45,348 nt of DNA from a virus. Where the stretch lies: positions 1 to 45,348 of IMG/VR virus record IMGVR_UViG_3300031964_000041, one strand, 5' to 3'. The notes beneath the pieces are model-generated. The model was not told the DNA's origin and made no database searches. It saw only the letters and a program-made list of their open reading frames with translations. Within the stretch, counting starts at the first letter, position 1, and each line of letters begins with the position of its first letter. A program made the position numbers and the translations under genes. Shown here piece by piece: positions 3,638 through 12,861 of this stretch.

Positions 3638-5632
3638 TTACTGCGGGGTGACGGTGACCGACTGGCCGCCTTCGATGTTGACGAGGAACATCCGAACAAT
3701 GCTCAGGTACGTGACCATGACGGTCGCGACCATGTAGCCCAACGCTACCTGACTCATCGGGTTGTTCGCCGCATTGAGCTGCACCGACCAGCCGGGTTGC
3801 GTCGGCGCATTCACATTGCCGATCATGTTGTTCGCCTGCAGATTCGCAAAGAACGCATCCATCGCGCCCTTCACATTGCGCCGCAGGTTGATCGTCTGCA
3901 CCTTGCCCGGTACATAGCCGAACGCGCTCGCGATCGTGAACGCGATGTAGTTGGTCATGCGCGTGTAATTGTCGCCGTTCGTCGCGCTGTTGCTGCTGGC
4001 GTTCTGACCAGTGCGGCATGCAAAGATGGATCCAGCCGGGGCGCCGAGCGTCAGTACCTCAAGCCGTGAGGTGGCGCACTGTGCGATTTGCGCATCGCTG
4101 TACGGCAAGTTCTGCATACTGCTCTGCGTCGCCAGCACACCCGCGATCGGGGCATTGAGAATCGATTGCTCCGGGCTGGTTGCGGCTTGCAAGGCAGAGG
4201 TGAAGGTCGCGGGCGACACCAGGCGCTGCACGCCGTTGACGGTGTCGTTGTAATACGACCAGTCGCCCACGAGACATGCGAATCCGTAACCATCGACACC
4301 GGAATTGGCGAGGTTGGTCGCACTGGTGGTGATGCTGGTACCCACCGGGTTAGCGCCGTGGAAATAGATGCCCTCCTGCAAGCCAAGAGCGAGTTGCGCG
4401 CTCCAGGTAGCCGGCGTCTGGCAGTCGATCAGGTTGCCAACTTGCGCGCCCGACTTGCGCAGCGCATACATACCAGAGCGGGTCAGGCCGTCTGCGCCGA
4501 CCAGCGTGTTATCGGTGACGCCATACGCGCCATCGGTACCGCCGGAGAGCGTATAGGTGTTCGTCAGGTTCGGTGCATTCGCGGAAGTGCCCAGTGTCGC
4601 GATGCAATTCACCGAGGGGCCGCGCAAGCCGGTCTGGCCGTTGTTCACGGCGTTGACCATGTTGAGCCATACACTGGTGGTCAGCGCGATCGATCCGCCG
4701 GTACCGCCGCCGCCCGTGAGTGTTGCGGTTGCCGAGGTATAGGCCGCACCCGGAGTGACTGGCGTGAAGGCGCCGAGGCCCCACACCATATTCACGAGTG
4801 CGCCGACACCGACACCCGAAGTCGAGGCGGGAGCGACCGCGGTCGTCGGGGCCACACCACCAGTCAGCGCGCCAGCATTGAAGACCACCAGCGACGTGAT
4901 GATGCCCGAGGCAGCGGTAACCGTCAGGATCACGCCATTCGCCATCGTGATCGTGTCGCCAGTCACGTAGCCAGTGCCGCCGCTCGCACCGCCTCCAGTC
5001 ACGTTGGCCGACAGCACTTCGAGGCTGATGATGCCGGTCGCCTGCACGCCATTGGCGCCCTGTGGCGCGGAAATGGACAGCGCCGGGACCGAGGTAAAGC
5101 CGGTGCCCGGCGTGACCGCGCCGCTACTCACGCCCTGCGAGAGGTTGTTGAACACCTCCGGCGTGAAGCCTGCGCGCTGAATTGTCAGCTTGTAGGTATT
5201 GGCCGCGGTGCCCGCTACAATCGAGGACGTGATGCCGTTGCCGACGATTCCGGTGTACATGCCGGTAAGCGTCATCCCGGTGACCGGTGAGCCGAGCGTA
5301 TCTTTCAGGGCTGCACTGGCCGCCGTATCCGTGCCGTCCGACACGCGCACCAGGATGTAATTCTGGACGTTGTTCATGTCACCGATCGCCACCGCCGTGG
5401 CAATGTCATGCTGGCGGAACGTGATCGGGCCGACCATTTGCTGCGCCTGCGCGCTGTTGCCGATGCCCATCATGGCGGCATTGACCGGGCCCCACGAACC
5501 GACGCCGACCAGACCAAGACCATCGGTCGGCACGCCGTTGATATAGGCGATGCTGGGCGGCTGGATGATGACGTACAGGTCGGGGGCCTGCAGTGCGGTG
5601 ACGTTTAAATTGCCTGCTTGGTACACTGGCAT
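3638..5632 (-). CDS. Contractile tail sheath protein
   Basis: The 664-residue protein starts MPVYQAGNLNVTALQAPDLYVIIQPPS. The N-terminal VGVGSWGPVNAAMMGIGN segment and the C-terminal region ending NIEGGQSVTVTPQ resemble sheath proteins of the subtilisin-like tail sheath family. Sheath subunits surround the tube and contract at infection. Between about residues 165 and 330 there is a Gly/Thr/Val-rich stretch with repeated TPGTGFTS, GGTGYVTGD and TPGAAYTS units, which looks like an inserted surface domain and accounts for the larger than usual length (typical 380-500). Terminators lie on both sides, so the gene may be a separately terminated unit. Confidence 0.85.
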   Translation of the reverse strand: MPVYQAGNLNVTALQAPDLYVIIQPPSIAYINGVPTDGLGLVGVGSWGPVNAAMMGIGNSAQAQQMVGPITFRQHDIATAVAIGDMNNVQNYILVRVSDGTDTAASAALKDTLGSPVTGMTLTGMYTGIVGNGITSSIVAGTAANTYKLTIQRAGFTPEVFNNLSQGVSSGAVTPGTGFTSVPALSISAPQGANGVQATGIISLEVLSANVTGGGASGGTGYVTGDTITMANGVILTVTAASGIITSLVVFNAGALTGGVAPTTAVAPASTSGVGVGALVNMVWGLGAFTPVTPGAAYTSATATLTGGGGTGGSIALTTSVWLNMVNAVNNGQTGLRGPSVNCIATLGTSANAPNLTNTYTLSGGTDGAYGVTDNTLVGADGLTRSGMYALRKSGAQVGNLIDCQTPATWSAQLALGLQEGIYFHGANPVGTSITTSATNLANSGVDGYGFACLVGDWSYYNDTVNGVQRLVSPATFTSALQAATSPEQSILNAPIAGVLATQSSMQNLPYSDAQIAQCATSRLEVLTLGAPAGSIFACRTGQNASSNSATNGDNYTRMTNYIAFTIASAFGYVPGKVQTINLRRNVKGAMDAFFANLQANNMIGNVNAPTQPGWSVQLNAANNPMSQVALGYMVATVMVTYLSIVRMFLVNIEGGQSVTVTPQ

Positions 5633-7021: not shown

Positions 7022-7657
7022 TTATGCCTCAACCAGTTCGAGAAGCGCTTCGTAGCCCAAAAGGCCCTTTTGCGCAGAGACGACCTGGTAATTATCCCCG
7101 TTTTCGTCCGTCACTTGGTCCCGAGTTTGTACGGCACCGTCCGGAAGATAGAAGAATGCAGCGTAAAAGGCCCGTAATGCGTTGTCAGTGGGCAGTTGCG
7201 CGGCCGGTCGGCCTGTTTCCTTCTTGACGCTTAGTACTCCGGGTATTCCCTGAGCGTAAGCGGTATCAAGGTCTGGATTTGGGTACGGCTGCTCGCCCGG
7301 CAGGCTGTTGATCAGTGGTCGCGAGAATGTCAGCGTCTGCGTGCAGCGCAGTGCAATCGGCGGCATCAAACTGTCCATCGCCAGCACGCAATACGTCTCG
7401 CAGCCGACCAGATAATCGCCTACCGCAAGCTGCGACCCATCCACGATGATCTGCCAGTACAACTGATTCGATTTCGACTGCCCGCTATACGTGCCGCCGA
7501 TGTTGAAACTCGCGTTCAAAGTACCGAGCTGGTTCGCAGGCTGGATCGGATTGATCAACACGGGTCCCGGTCGATACAGGCAGTGTGGAGGCCCGATCCG
7601 CAGCGCCGCCTTCGCATACCCCGCGTAAATCTTGGCTTGAATCAGTGCGGCGTCCAT
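7022..7657 (-). CDS. Conserved-type virion protein, 211 residues
   Basis: I take the ATG at 7657, giving MDAALIQAKIYAGYAKAAL, because it shares one base with the stop of the upstream hydrolase gene (TGATG); the frame is open 14 codons further. The protein is beta-rich with ETYCVLAMDSLMPPIALRC in the middle and ends LLGYEALLELVEA. It sits between connector genes and the 273-residue gene and is probably a head-tail joining component. No family recognised. Confidence 0.65.
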   Translation of the reverse strand: MDAALIQAKIYAGYAKAALRIGPPHCLYRPGPVLINPIQPANQLGTLNASFNIGGTYSGQSKSNQLYWQIIVDGSQLAVGDYLVGCETYCVLAMDSLMPPIALRCTQTLTFSRPLINSLPGEQPYPNPDLDTAYAQGIPGVLSVKKETGRPAAQLPTDNALRAFYAAFFYLPDGAVQTRDQVTDENGDNYQVVSAQKGLLGYEALLELVEA

Positions 7658-8085
7658 CAGAGCTCCAACGTGTCGATGCCCATACCAACAGACGAGCACA
7701 GTTCGGATGCGATGGCGACAGCTTCGGCAGAAGTTTTGCCAAGATGCATTGAGGTGATGGCGTAATCCTGGCCGCTGCCAATCGCAGCATACGACCGCAA
7801 TATGCGAATCGGAAACTCATTGTTCGCGTAGATCAATGCGGTGCCATCTGGATCGATGAACAGAATGCGCGCGTAAGTATCTCCGATAGGCGCTGCCAGC
7901 TTTCCCGGCTTGCGTCCCTTGATGCACCAATTGACTATCTCATACGCACGCGGCAGATCGCCTGCGCCGCCCAGCAAAGAGCCGTCATCGAGACGCTGAA
8001 TCTTGCAGACTGGAAACTTCCCGCCATTCATTTCCATCAGGCGATCGGCGGAAAGCGAGCTGCCATCCCAGCAGATAACAGTCAT
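7657..8085 (-). CDS. Proteasome/HslV-like Ntn hydrolase
   Basis: The 142-residue protein begins MTVICWDGSSLSADR. In the HslV / 20S proteasome beta family the mature enzyme starts at a catalytic Thr after Met removal, which Thr2 would provide. An acidic residue (D14), a lysine in a K-x-x-R/K-like context (K28 in VCKIQRL), the segment LLGGAGDLPRAYE, and AIGSGQDYA (residues 101-109) followed by SAEAVAIASEL line up with that fold. It is shorter than HslV (about 175). The product is likely a threonine-type protease or degenerate relative. Its place among connector genes hints at a role in virion maturation, but this is inference. Confidence 0.65.
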   Translation of the reverse strand: MTVICWDGSSLSADRLMEMNGGKFPVCKIQRLDDGSLLGGAGDLPRAYEIVNWCIKGRKPGKLAAPIGDTYARILFIDPDGTALIYANNEFPIRILRSYAAIGSGQDYAITSMHLGKTSAEAVAIASELCSSVGMGIDTLEL

Positions 8086-8481
8086 TCAAACCACCAGCGC
8101 GTTAGAGCAGCCGCCAAAGTTCGGACCTTTCGGAACCCCTAGGAAATTGCACAGCCGCATGCGCCAGGAGTCAAAGAGGCGATCTCTGTCCAATTGCTCA
8201 TTCTTATTGTGAGTCCATACTGCAGCCACATCGGTATCAAGGTTCGCGCTCGTACCTGGGATGGCCGTTTCCAGCGCGTAGAGGTTGGTGAGGTAGGTAT
8301 TCACGACCACCAGACCTTCGTTCGCACTGATGTGCTGCAGGCGGTATTCGAGCGCGAGGTACTGGCGCATGATCCACGGGTAGGGGAACACGACGTCACC
8401 ATCGCCGTACGCCGGGTACCCGCAGAAACGCCGAACATCAACGAGTTGCGCATCAGTAAAGGTATAGGGCGTGAAGGCCAT
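8086..8481 (-). CDS. Head-tail connector (adaptor) protein
   Basis: A 131-residue, mostly helical protein starting MAFTPYTFTDAQLVDVRRFCGYP. Helical segments rich in aromatic residues (YPWIMRQYLALEYRLQHI) and position just downstream of the capsid gene match the small adaptor proteins that bind the portal ring, such as the HK97 gp6 and lambda gpFII-region equivalents. The stop abuts the next gene start (8085). The family assignment is by size, helicity and gene order. Confidence 0.6.
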   Translation of the reverse strand: MAFTPYTFTDAQLVDVRRFCGYPAYGDGDVVFPYPWIMRQYLALEYRLQHISANEGLVVVNTYLTNLYALETAIPGTSANLDTDVAAVWTHNKNEQLDRDRLFDSWRMRLCNFLGVPKGPNFGGCSNALVV

Positions 8482-8484
8482 GGA

Positions 8485-8685
8485 TTACTCGAAGAGCGCG
8501 CCGGACTGGACGAGTTGCGTAATCAGCGCACCATCCTTGATGGGATCAAACTCGGTACCAGCGGTAAAATGCTGATGCGTGCGACCGTGCGTCATCAGGC
8601 CGTGATTCTTCTTGAGTACGAACTTGGGCGCCGCAGACTCGGTGACTTCGGGTGCGTCCGGTGCTTCTTGCTTGGGCCTGGCCAT
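8485..8685 (-). CDS. Small head-region protein, 66 residues
   Basis: Starts MARPKQEAPDAPEVTESAAP with a strong ribosome binding site (AAAGGAG, 8 bases upstream), which decides this start over an upstream in-frame one. A disordered charged N-terminus leads to a folded part LMTHGRTHQHFTAGTEFDP, typical of small phage head-stabilising or head-tail proteins. Function unknown. Confidence 0.65.
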   Translation of the reverse strand: MARPKQEAPDAPEVTESAAPKFVLKKNHGLMTHGRTHQHFTAGTEFDPIKDGALITQLVQSGALFE

Positions 8686-8726
8686 GGTGATCTCCTTTAT
8701 GAAGCCCCCGAGGGGACAGAGGCTTG

Positions 8727-8754
8727 AAAAGGAGCCGGGATTGCTCCCGGTCCC
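8727..8754 (-). terminator. Intrinsic terminator after the major capsid gene
   Basis: On the minus strand CCGGGA-GCAA-TCCCGG, extended by a weaker outer stem and followed by TTTT. The loop is a GNRA tetraloop. It lies just downstream of the capsid stop codon. Confidence 0.7.
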
Positions 8755-8768
8755 TTGTGACTGGACGA

Positions 8769-10130
8769 TTAAAGCGATTCCAGAATGATTGCGCGTTTGC
8801 ACGCCGAGCTATTGGCGGTCGGAATCGTTGCGGACGTGGTGGTGGTGTCGGTCGGCACGGCAAAACCGCCCGAATACGACCACGTTTGCGTAATCACCTG
8901 CTGAAGCGCATCAAGCGGCGAGCGAGTCACCATCGCAATGTCGTCGACGATGACGATCGAGTCGTCCTTGTCCTGACCTTCGAGATTGCCGCGATAGGCT
9001 TCGTTCGTGAACACGCCTTCGACCAGCGCGCCCTGACCACACAGGACTCCACGGCGAACCGTACCGACACCGGCCAACGTCTGGACCGGGTTCAAGTTGG
9101 TTTCTTGGAGCCGCACGCCCAGAAGCTCGGCAACAACGCCCTGGCGATATTCCTCGGTCGTCACCTGACCACGGAAGAACATCTGGAAGGCCGGATCGCT
9201 GTACAACCCGGTCGCCTGAAGCGGATCGAGGTACATGTGATACATGCCCGTCGCATCAACCACCGGCACGCCATTGGCCGCCATCGTGGCCTTGGCGTTC
9301 AGGATCATACCCATCGTCAACTTGCCGCTGTTGTTGTCGTTGGTCGCAGAGATGGCAGCGGATGTGGCGGCCATCAGGCCTGAACTCGTGATCGTCGGGC
9401 GAAGTACCACTGGCGCCACGGACGAGACAACCGCATTCAGCGCGGTAGCATCGGCAACCGTCACCGAGGTCGAGAACGTCAGTGTGCCGGAAACGCCGCC
9501 CGGCGTAGTCGATACGTTGGACCCGTCTGCGGTCGAACCTTGCAGCGAGTACGTGTCACTGCCGACAACCACGTTCACCGCATTCGACGACGAGATCGGC
9601 ACCACCTGGCCGGCGCTGTTCAGTGTGTTTTGGAATCCACGGATATCATCGACCGAGATGGTGGCGGCCGGCGAGCCGAGCGTGGTACGTACACGGGTAT
9701 TGCCGCCCATGTACGCGTTGAACAGCGCCATCTGCGCCAGCGTATCGACCGAACGGTAGGCCTGTTCGCCCAGCGCGTAACCGTTGCGCAGGAACAGGTT
9801 GTCGATCGCAACACGCGCCGTAGCGATGTTGAGCTGCATCATGCCGGGATATTGAGCGATGCCCAGAATGTACTGCTCGACGCTGTAGTTCTGCGCGGTC
9901 AGGCCCGACGTGATGTCGGAGTTGTCCGCCGGTGACATTGGGGTCGTGATAGCCGGGAGCAAGCCGGTGCGGGTCTTGGCGATCGTTTCACCGATGTTCG
10001 CCATGAACGGCTCACGATCGGCAATAGCGCGGAAACCCAGTTTGGCGCGCAACGGCATGCCGAACTGGTGCTCGAGATAGCCGAGCTGAATCACCGACTG
10101 AATTGATGCGGGGAGGTTATTAAAAGCCAT
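8769..10130 (-). CDS. Major capsid protein
   Basis: The 453-residue protein starts MAFNNLPASIQSVIQLGYLE; the ATG at 10130 is preferred over an in-frame upstream start that would overlap non-coding sequence. Segments such as NYSVEQYILGIAQYPGMMQLNIA and LAQMALFNAYMGGNTRVR, plus the place directly after scaffold and before connectors, fit a HK97-fold major capsid protein. Residues about 175-270 are rich in Thr, Ser, Val and Gly and look like an inserted Ig-like surface domain. No separate prohead protease gene is recognisable next to it. Confidence 0.8.
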   Translation of the reverse strand: MAFNNLPASIQSVIQLGYLEHQFGMPLRAKLGFRAIADREPFMANIGETIAKTRTGLLPAITTPMSPADNSDITSGLTAQNYSVEQYILGIAQYPGMMQLNIATARVAIDNLFLRNGYALGEQAYRSVDTLAQMALFNAYMGGNTRVRTTLGSPAATISVDDIRGFQNTLNSAGQVVPISSSNAVNVVVGSDTYSLQGSTADGSNVSTTPGGVSGTLTFSTSVTVADATALNAVVSSVAPVVLRPTITSSGLMAATSAAISATNDNNSGKLTMGMILNAKATMAANGVPVVDATGMYHMYLDPLQATGLYSDPAFQMFFRGQVTTEEYRQGVVAELLGVRLQETNLNPVQTLAGVGTVRRGVLCGQGALVEGVFTNEAYRGNLEGQDKDDSIVIVDDIAMVTRSPLDALQQVITQTWSYSGGFAVPTDTTTTSATIPTANSSACKRAIILESL

Positions 10131-10200
10131 GACAAGTCCTGTGTGGTTTGGGTAGGGTGTTTCCCCCTCGCCACCAGGGCTGTCGGGCAATAATGCAAGT

Positions 10201-10972: not shown

Positions 10973-12448
10973 CTATTCGGTGATCGCAGCGGTTACGGTG
11001 GCCGCAGCATTGCGCTCAGCCATCTCGGCATCGGCAAGCCGTTTTTCAGCGGCTGCATCTTCGATGTCGTATTCAGCGGCGAGGATCTTGATGGCCGTCT
11101 CGCGGCTCTGCAGTCCAGAGTCACAAAGCTTGGCAAGCGTGGTGGCACGCGTCAGCATGTCCTGCAGGGTCGGTGCGTACCAGGCCGGCCAGCGCAGGCT
11201 GATGCCCGACTTGATATCGAACTTGCCGACCTTTTCGCCATCCTTGAACACCAGCTCGGACTTCTCGGACGCCTTCGCAATCATGCACAGCAGTTCTTTC
11301 AGCGCGCCCTCGCCGTAGCTGATCCGCAGCCGATCGGCCAGCCAGACCAGCGCCTGATTCATCAATTCCATTGCGCGGCCCGACTGCGCCGAGGACATTT
11401 TCTCGGGGCTGGTGCGGTTGCCGTGCAGCGTTTCGAGTTGGATCTCGCGCAGGTATTTGACGTAATCCAACACCGCGGCGGATCCGGTTCCGTTGATTTC
11501 GAGCAGCTTGGCGTCGCCTTCGGCACTGACCTTGATCGCGTTGGCGGCACCTTTGACCGTCGGCCCGTTTTCGCCGTACGCCGGTTCTTTGATGAGTAGC
11601 GTCGGATCGGACGTGTATTTCAGCCCCCGACCATCCTGCGAAAGTTGGTAATCGATCTCGATCTGCGTGTCGATCGCCTCGCCGCAGAACGTGGGCTTGC
11701 CATCAATCGCGTCGCCACCAGGCAGGTTCTTGACCCACGCCACCGGCACGAAACCGAGCGCGTGTTTGACCGTCTTGTCTTTGTCGATCGACGGCGCGAA
11801 TTCAAGCCCGGCCGCCTTTTTGTCAACCTCGTCCGCCACCTTCCACGGCGTGAACCACGTTTCAGCCGCGGCATCCCACTCGCGGCAAAACCAAAAATCG
11901 GCGCCGAAGTCGTCTAGCTTGATCGAATAGCCCGAATCCTTGAGCGCGCGCCCCTTGACCTTGTACTTTTCAACGACCTTCAGCAGCGTGTCTGGCGCCT
12001 CTGGATTCCAGATCGGCGTCAGGTAATCGGTTTCCATCGCGTCGAAGAACACGCGCTGCTTGAGCACGCGGAACAGGATCGCGACGGACCCGACACTGCC
12101 TTTCGTGGCCGCGTCGATCATGACCGCGTTCATGCCGCATTCCTTGATGAGCTTCCCCATCGCCTGCTTTTGCTCGGGGCTTTTTAGGTCGACGGTCGGG
12201 AAATGCCCCTCGGAGAACAGCAGCGAGACGGAATCATTCACCACCGTTCGGCATAGATTCATGCGCACGCTCGGGCGCCGCTTGCGTAACGGGATGTAGG
12301 TCCCGTCGCCAGACTCTTCCTCGTCGAACGCGTGCTTGAGCTCGTCATACAGCGTGCCGTTGAGCACTCGTTGCAGCGTCTGCAGGCGGAATGTCCGCTC
12401 CGGGAAATCCTTGTCTTTCGGGAAATCCTTTTGCAGGGTCTTAAACAT
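10973..12448 (-). CDS. Portal protein
   Basis: A 491-residue protein starting MFKTLQKDFPKDKDFPERTF. Its size, its place directly after the large terminase block, and segments such as RMNLCRTVVNDSVSLLFSEGHFP (around 62-85), ETDYLTPIWNPE and the helical C-terminal part with ISLRWPAWYAPTLQDM match SPP1-like phage portals. A dodecameric portal forms the DNA entry vertex and binds terminase. The C-terminus ends in an Ala/Glu-rich helical tail. Confidence 0.85.
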   Translation of the reverse strand: MFKTLQKDFPKDKDFPERTFRLQTLQRVLNGTLYDELKHAFDEEESGDGTYIPLRKRRPSVRMNLCRTVVNDSVSLLFSEGHFPTVDLKSPEQKQAMGKLIKECGMNAVMIDAATKGSVGSVAILFRVLKQRVFFDAMETDYLTPIWNPEAPDTLLKVVEKYKVKGRALKDSGYSIKLDDFGADFWFCREWDAAAETWFTPWKVADEVDKKAAGLEFAPSIDKDKTVKHALGFVPVAWVKNLPGGDAIDGKPTFCGEAIDTQIEIDYQLSQDGRGLKYTSDPTLLIKEPAYGENGPTVKGAANAIKVSAEGDAKLLEINGTGSAAVLDYVKYLREIQLETLHGNRTSPEKMSSAQSGRAMELMNQALVWLADRLRISYGEGALKELLCMIAKASEKSELVFKDGEKVGKFDIKSGISLRWPAWYAPTLQDMLTRATTLAKLCDSGLQSRETAIKILAAEYDIEDAAAEKRLADAEMAERNAAATVTAAITE

Positions 12449-12486: not shown

Positions 12487-12861
12487 TTATTCAGCGTCGT
12501 AGGTGGCGGCGAAGACGTCGGGTTTGACGGCGGAATGATTGCCTCTCGCGTCTGTCACGATCCAGTCGCCAGGGCAGACGGTTTCGCCAGTTGCGCCGGC
12601 ATCGATCCAGCCATGCACATGCATTTCGTTATCGCAATGGCGACACAACTTCTCGCCACCAACATCCGGGCGGCGGAAATAACGGACTACCTCACCTTCC
12701 CAGCCCTTTGCCTTACGCTCTTCCGGCGAAAACATGCGCTCTCGGCGCAAGCCATCAATGTGCTCGTGACCGACCATGGAGCTGCTGTAATCCGCAGGAT
12801 GGTCGCCATTCTTGAACCACTGCGACGCCTCGACGGAAATTGGCTTCTTGATGAATTTCAT
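12487..12861 (-). CDS. Phage protein of the MKFIKKP type, with a small zinc-like motif
   Basis: A 124-residue protein starting MKFIKKPISVEASQWFKNGD. Proteins opening with this motif followed by a GDWIV(T/R)DA segment (here PGDWIVTDARGNHSAVKPD) are widespread in phages and have no established function. The middle part contains CRHCDNEMHVHGW, a possible metal-binding Cys/His set. It sits between terminase and portal genes, an unusual place for this family, which more often occurs in lysis or accessory regions. Confidence 0.75.
   Translation of the reverse strand: MKFIKKPISVEASQWFKNGDHPADYSSSMVGHEHIDGLRRERMFSPEERKAKGWEGEVVRYFRRPDVGGEKLCRHCDNEMHVHGWIDAGATGETVCPGDWIVTDARGNHSAVKPDVFAATYDAE

Follow-up and report, generated by a model that had tools for sequence, protein, structure and literature searches.

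The window analyzed here, the whole stretch of 45,348 nucleotides of IMG/VR record IMGVR_UViG_3300031964_000041, carries a short open reading frame resembling the peptidase HslV between the head and tail genes of a myophage. This raises the question of what a proteasome-like hydrolase does among head-tail connector genes and, in particular, whether it matures the head. The initial annotation had suggested as much, proposing that a threonine-type protease processes head proteins or removes the scaffold in this phage. Our predictions bear out the fold and the intact active site, but we find no support for the proposed role in maturing the head or removing the scaffold. The explanation that we favor overall, and consider probable, is that the gene is optional and horizontally exchanged and encodes a PPH-family protein, a small HslV-related peptidase of phages with an N-terminal threonine (Ntn).

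Table 1. Coordinates in the window of the predicted hydrolase gene, its active-site codons, and neighboring late genes.
Feature	Position	Strand	Remarks
PPH-type Ntn hydrolase (mini-HslV), predicted, 142 aa	7657..8085	-	ATG start at 8085; stop TGA 7659-7657 included
Thr2 codon, corresponding to HslV Thr1; predicted to be the N-terminal nucleophile once Met is removed	8080..8082	-	conserved; aligned to HslV residue 1; Met presumably removed
Asp14 codon, proteasome Asp17 equivalent	8044..8046	-	kept in all 35 aligned relatives that cover the position
Lys28 codon, proteasome Lys33 equivalent	8002..8004	-	kept in all 36 aligned relatives that cover the position
Gly42 codon, probable oxyanion-hole glycine, proteasome Gly47	7960..7962	-	kept in 34 of the 36 aligned relatives that cover the position
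AIGSG motif, residues 101-105	7771..7785	-	Gly103 and Gly105 in 39/39 relatives
g131, upstream flank, all-helical head-tail adaptor-like protein, PHROG 14539	8086..8481	-	AF2 model; conserved slot marker
g212, downstream flank, connector-region protein, PHROG 14605	7022..7657	-	second slot marker
Major capsid protein ORF	8769..10190	-	likely ATG at 10130; PHROG 1357, E 7e-27
Scaffolding protein, Phage_scaffold PF06810	10235..10900	-	adjoins portal gene; profile match
Portal protein	10973..12448	-	PHROG 145, E 4e-15

The reading frame and the sequence features first noted in it (the N-terminus M-T-V-I-C, D14, K28, and the AIGSG motif) were all confirmed, on the minus strand (Table 1). The protein reads MTVICWDGSSLSADR...VCKIQ...AAIGSGQDYA...GMGIDTLEL. 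The start codon of PPH directly follows the TGA of the upstream gene, and the PPH TGA overlaps the next gene's ATG; hence, PPH is closely packed within the late operon. Late genes are arranged in the order terminase, a 124-aa gene, portal, scaffold, capsid, a 105-aa gene, g131, PPH, g212, g273, sheath, tube, and others. The adaptor-like fold of g131 comes from one clear match, to the neck of cyanophage A-1(L) (Z 8.1, all others 4.2 or lower), obtained with a model of medium confidence (AF2, pLDDT 72). The 124-aa gene between terminase and portal (window 12487-12861) matches PHROG 419 and contains a Cys/His-rich stretch (CRHCDNEMHVHG), an apparent insert relative to the profile. The tail sheath (window 3638-5632) has 664 aa against 496 profile positions, and Gly/Thr-rich repeats in its mid-region suggest an inserted domain.

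The identity of the protein was settled by profile and fold searches. PHROG 1040, annotated as peptidase HslV family, matches residues 1-141 (E 8e-21); neither a Pfam search nor a direct sequence search of the PDB with the protein returned a match. Relatives were found in IMG/VR contigs, cultured phages, and prophages, and a search of plasmids gave no match. Across 39 non-identical relatives, those with a residue at position 2 have threonine in 35 cases, serine in one, and arginine in one, and the remaining positions expected of the active site are present in all or nearly all sequences covering them (Table 1).

An AF2 model of the protein, built from an alignment of eight sequences, has a mean pLDDT of 91.7 and a pTM of 0.86. 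Its best matches among solved structures are HslV (1g3i_G, Z 17.9, 2.2 Å over 137 residues), with 20S beta subunits ranking after them, and both this model and the profile match uphold the HslV/proteasome-type fold that was suspected from the sequence. In this comparison with HslV, which the initial annotation had suggested as a check, residue 2 of the model superposes on Thr1 of HslV in 1g3i_G. A single helix (residues 44-55) is followed by a loop leading to a strand (72-77) at the place where HslV has helices H1 and H2. The short length and the missing H2 might suggest a degenerate, inactive relic of HslV. However, the catalytic positions are kept in nearly every relative, the fold is confidently predicted, and the gene is under purifying selection (dN/dS ~0.05, for the relative pairs L190/L191 and L190/L192 only), all of which renders such a relic highly improbable.

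A proteasome homolog of this kind has been described before. The PPH family was published in 2021, and Fuchs, Alva and Lupas give the missing helix H2 as a feature of PPH/RPC (PMC8665760). The window protein is ~140 aa long, matches a phage HslV-like family, begins with a threonine without a propeptide, has the equivalents of Asp17, Lys33, and Gly47, and is predicted to adopt a proteasome-beta/HslV fold without H2; the family match was made via PHROG 1040 rather than with the PPH profile of the 2021 paper itself. Because the protein fits published PPH on every testable feature, the fold and its occurrence in phages were already known. The window PPH is thus a member of an established family, the PPH fold in phages is not first seen here, and the initial suggestion of a new use of the fold does not hold, the family having been in print since 2021. 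That the gene encodes an Ntn hydrolase of the PPH type, its active site intact, is a prediction in which we place high confidence.

We then consider whether this enzyme might be the prohead protease of the phage, removing the scaffold or trimming head proteins in place of the usual serine protease. Its position in the late head-tail operon favors this idea, as does the lack of a conventional candidate: profiles for Peptidase_S78, CLP_protease, DUF2213, and Peptidase_S49 matched nothing anywhere in the 45-kb record, in agreement with the initial annotation, which recognized no ordinary prohead protease near the capsid and scaffold genes. Prohead protease genes are usually found beside the portal, scaffold, and capsid genes. 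Here, the PPH gene lies downstream of capsid and adaptor, the portal and scaffold genes are neighbors, and there is no protease gene between these two in the window.

The distribution of PPH among relatives with the same head module speaks against a role in head maturation. Loci were gathered around relatives of g131, the capsid protein, g212, and PPH. Both g131 and g212 are present in 102 non-identical loci. PPH separates them in 15; in the other 87 it is absent from this junction, and in 75 of these 87 the gap between g131 and g212 is 33 nt or less. One PPH-less locus (L039) has a gap of a single nucleotide at the slot, with a major capsid protein, adaptor, and portal 72%, 79%, and 59% identical to those of the window. 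At the level of whole records, PHROG 1040 is present in 8 of 25 and absent from 17, although IMG/VR records may be virus fragments, and these 17 records without PPH are also without an S78 protease. Capsid proteins with 72-79% identity occur both with and without PPH, and the PPHs found in the phages with such similar capsids are as little as 38-40% identical.

Komagataeibacter phage phiKX1 provides a named example. It has the same module with three unrelated small ORFs in the slot, and a search of its whole record found no PPH; yet the study that sequenced it reports myovirus particles from the strain, seen by TEM, while phiKX1 itself was rated incomplete by the authors' PHAST analysis (PMC8566455). 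Given these absences from slots and whole records, together with phiKX1, the head module appears not to need PPH. The gene is optional here: the majority of phages that share this head module lack it. As a separate observation, a Peptidase_S78 head protease was found in none of the 25 related records, with PPH or without.

Further evidence against a prohead protease comes from other phages that carry PPH, in several of which a different protein serves, or is annotated, as the head protease. In Jedunavirus IME346, PPH is located in a divergent insertion within the tail gene region, and a separate DUF2213-type protein is annotated as the head maturation protease; in Microbacterium phage WaterT, it lies upstream of terminase, with a separate annotated capsid maturation protease, gp24. 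In SPN3US, PPH corresponds to gp001, and head cleavage is carried out by gp245, a proven protease (PMC10052503). The gene list published for pSal-SNUABM-04 contains two HslV genes alongside three for prohead proteases, and HslU does not appear in it (PMC7823757). In phiM5, where PPH (gp03) is encoded between terminase and portal, the record marks the portal, scaffold, and capsid proteins as found in particles; gp03 carries no such mark. Elsewhere, PPH adjoins holins (Jerseyvirus SETP7 and Kagunavirus G), lies near lysozyme (in a T7-like Pradovirus), or has HNH or early genes as neighbors. Taking these lines together, we regard it as very likely that PPH does not serve as head maturation protease in this architecture, and the threonine-type prohead protease as very improbable. 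The 87 loci that have the same junction and no PPH speak against the processing of head proteins and removal of scaffold put forward in the initial annotation.

We turn next to the recurrence of the gene at one junction. Across the slot, identity between the window and locus L005 falls from 89% in g131 through 63% in PPH to 36% in g212, which marks the slot as a junction of exchanging head and tail modules. The same place is occupied by other genes in related phages: a 155-aa ORF in L179, a 181-aa ORF in L163, and the small ORFs 490, 500, and 510 in phiKX1. We therefore read the recurrent position of PPH mainly as an insertion hot spot. In locus L151, an extra ~740 nt precedes PPH in the slot (about 7990-9221), and this may represent two stacked accessory inserts.

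A second connector module also contains the gene. In seven loci (L011, L193, L197, L208, L210, L215, and L217), PPH is found between the head-tail adaptor Ad1 (PHROG 477) and the head closure protein Hc1 (PHROG 161), a recurrence that is absent from the accessible part of the 2021 PPH account (PMC8665760). Profile comparison detected no homology between the adaptor families of the two modules, nor between their downstream connector families. With flanking families that are not detectably homologous, the position is common to the two modules by place, not by sequence. In a tree of 44 PPH proteins, the g131-g212 position requires at least three changes (gains or losses), and the PPH of L011, from the Ad1/Hc1 module, and that of L012, from the g131/g212 module, are sisters with support of 100/99. 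PPH is a horizontally exchanged accessory gene.

This shared place could alternatively reflect a function in head-tail joining or tail completion, in which optional trimming or ligation of a connector protein would explain the recurrence between adaptor and connector genes. Such a function would fit the finding that, of 50 non-identical PPH genes, 23 have an adaptor gene on one side and the next connector gene on the other, in two modules whose flanks are not detectably homologous, but this sample is biased toward relatives of the window PPH. Moreover, the slot also holds unrelated genes and coincides with the steep drop in identity, so that it behaves as a hot spot, and many phages have PPH near holin, terminase, HNH, or early genes instead. 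A head-tail accessory role is accordingly quite unlikely in our estimation, and we would call it improbable that PPH has been repeatedly recruited to the adaptor-connector place of modules that are not detectably homologous as a threonine peptidase or ligase that processes a connector protein.

What, then, might the optional peptidase do? Not every proteasome-like protein is a protease; some, such as connectase, are ligases. For PPH, host methionine aminopeptidase would remove Met1 and expose Thr2, which would act as the nucleophile of an oligomeric Ntn peptidase, or possibly of a peptide ligase; the oligomer may be ring-like or of another form. Its place in the late operon suggests that it would act in the cytoplasm late in infection, presumably on a host or phage protein. 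It would require no phage ATPase, and a profile search found no ATPase of the AAA_2 family in the phage record. The chances seem about even that PPH is, as predicted along these lines, a soluble late cytoplasmic peptidase with an accessory (moron) function.

A more specific proposal is a host-targeting effector, which would degrade or ligate a host regulator or defense protein, alone or via the host HslU/Clp ATPases, or would poison host HslUV by mixed assembly. The patchy, horizontally exchanged distribution, the strict conservation of the active site, the varied genome positions, and a phage that brings no ATPase partner are all consistent with such an effector, but we found no defense-linked context, and we consider the proposal tentative and on balance unlikely.

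In the 2021 survey, the gene context of PPH is reported as uninformative (PMC8665760). From our comparison of gene contexts, a head protease, which is the most straightforward proposal, emerges as unlikely in this lineage. The comparison also provides natural pairs of phages with and without PPH at one defined place, a set on which the function of PPH can be tested.

Compared with published PPH, nothing basic differs in the window protein. It shares the length, the phage-borne occurrence, the N-terminal threonine lacking a propeptide, the Asp/Lys/Gly set, the absence of H2, and the lack of a co-occurring AAA+ partner; what sets it apart is its slot in a myophage, after an adaptor-like gene and before the connector gene that follows; the nearest cultured relatives of this myophage infect acetic acid bacteria. 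With HslV (ClpQ) of the HslUV system it has in common the predicted fold, Thr1/Asp17/Lys33, and the GSG motif. In contrast to full-length HslV, with ~173 residues and both H1 and H2, it has 142 residues and one helix, the second being missing; the two are 20% identical, and the search for the AAA_2 family found no HslU candidate in the phage record, though a host HslU may be available. AAH, the other phage-borne proteasome homolog, is likewise assigned to Group I and found in phages in the same account (PMC8665760). The Microbacterium phage WaterT relative (176 aa) may belong to AAH. Finally, the prohead proteases of phages (S78/assemblin-like, ClpP-like, or T4 gp21-like, such as SPN3US gp245) are likewise late-gene proteases. 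Their fold is unrelated to that of PPH, and a phage that uses such a protease needs it for head maturation; PPH, in contrast, is optional.
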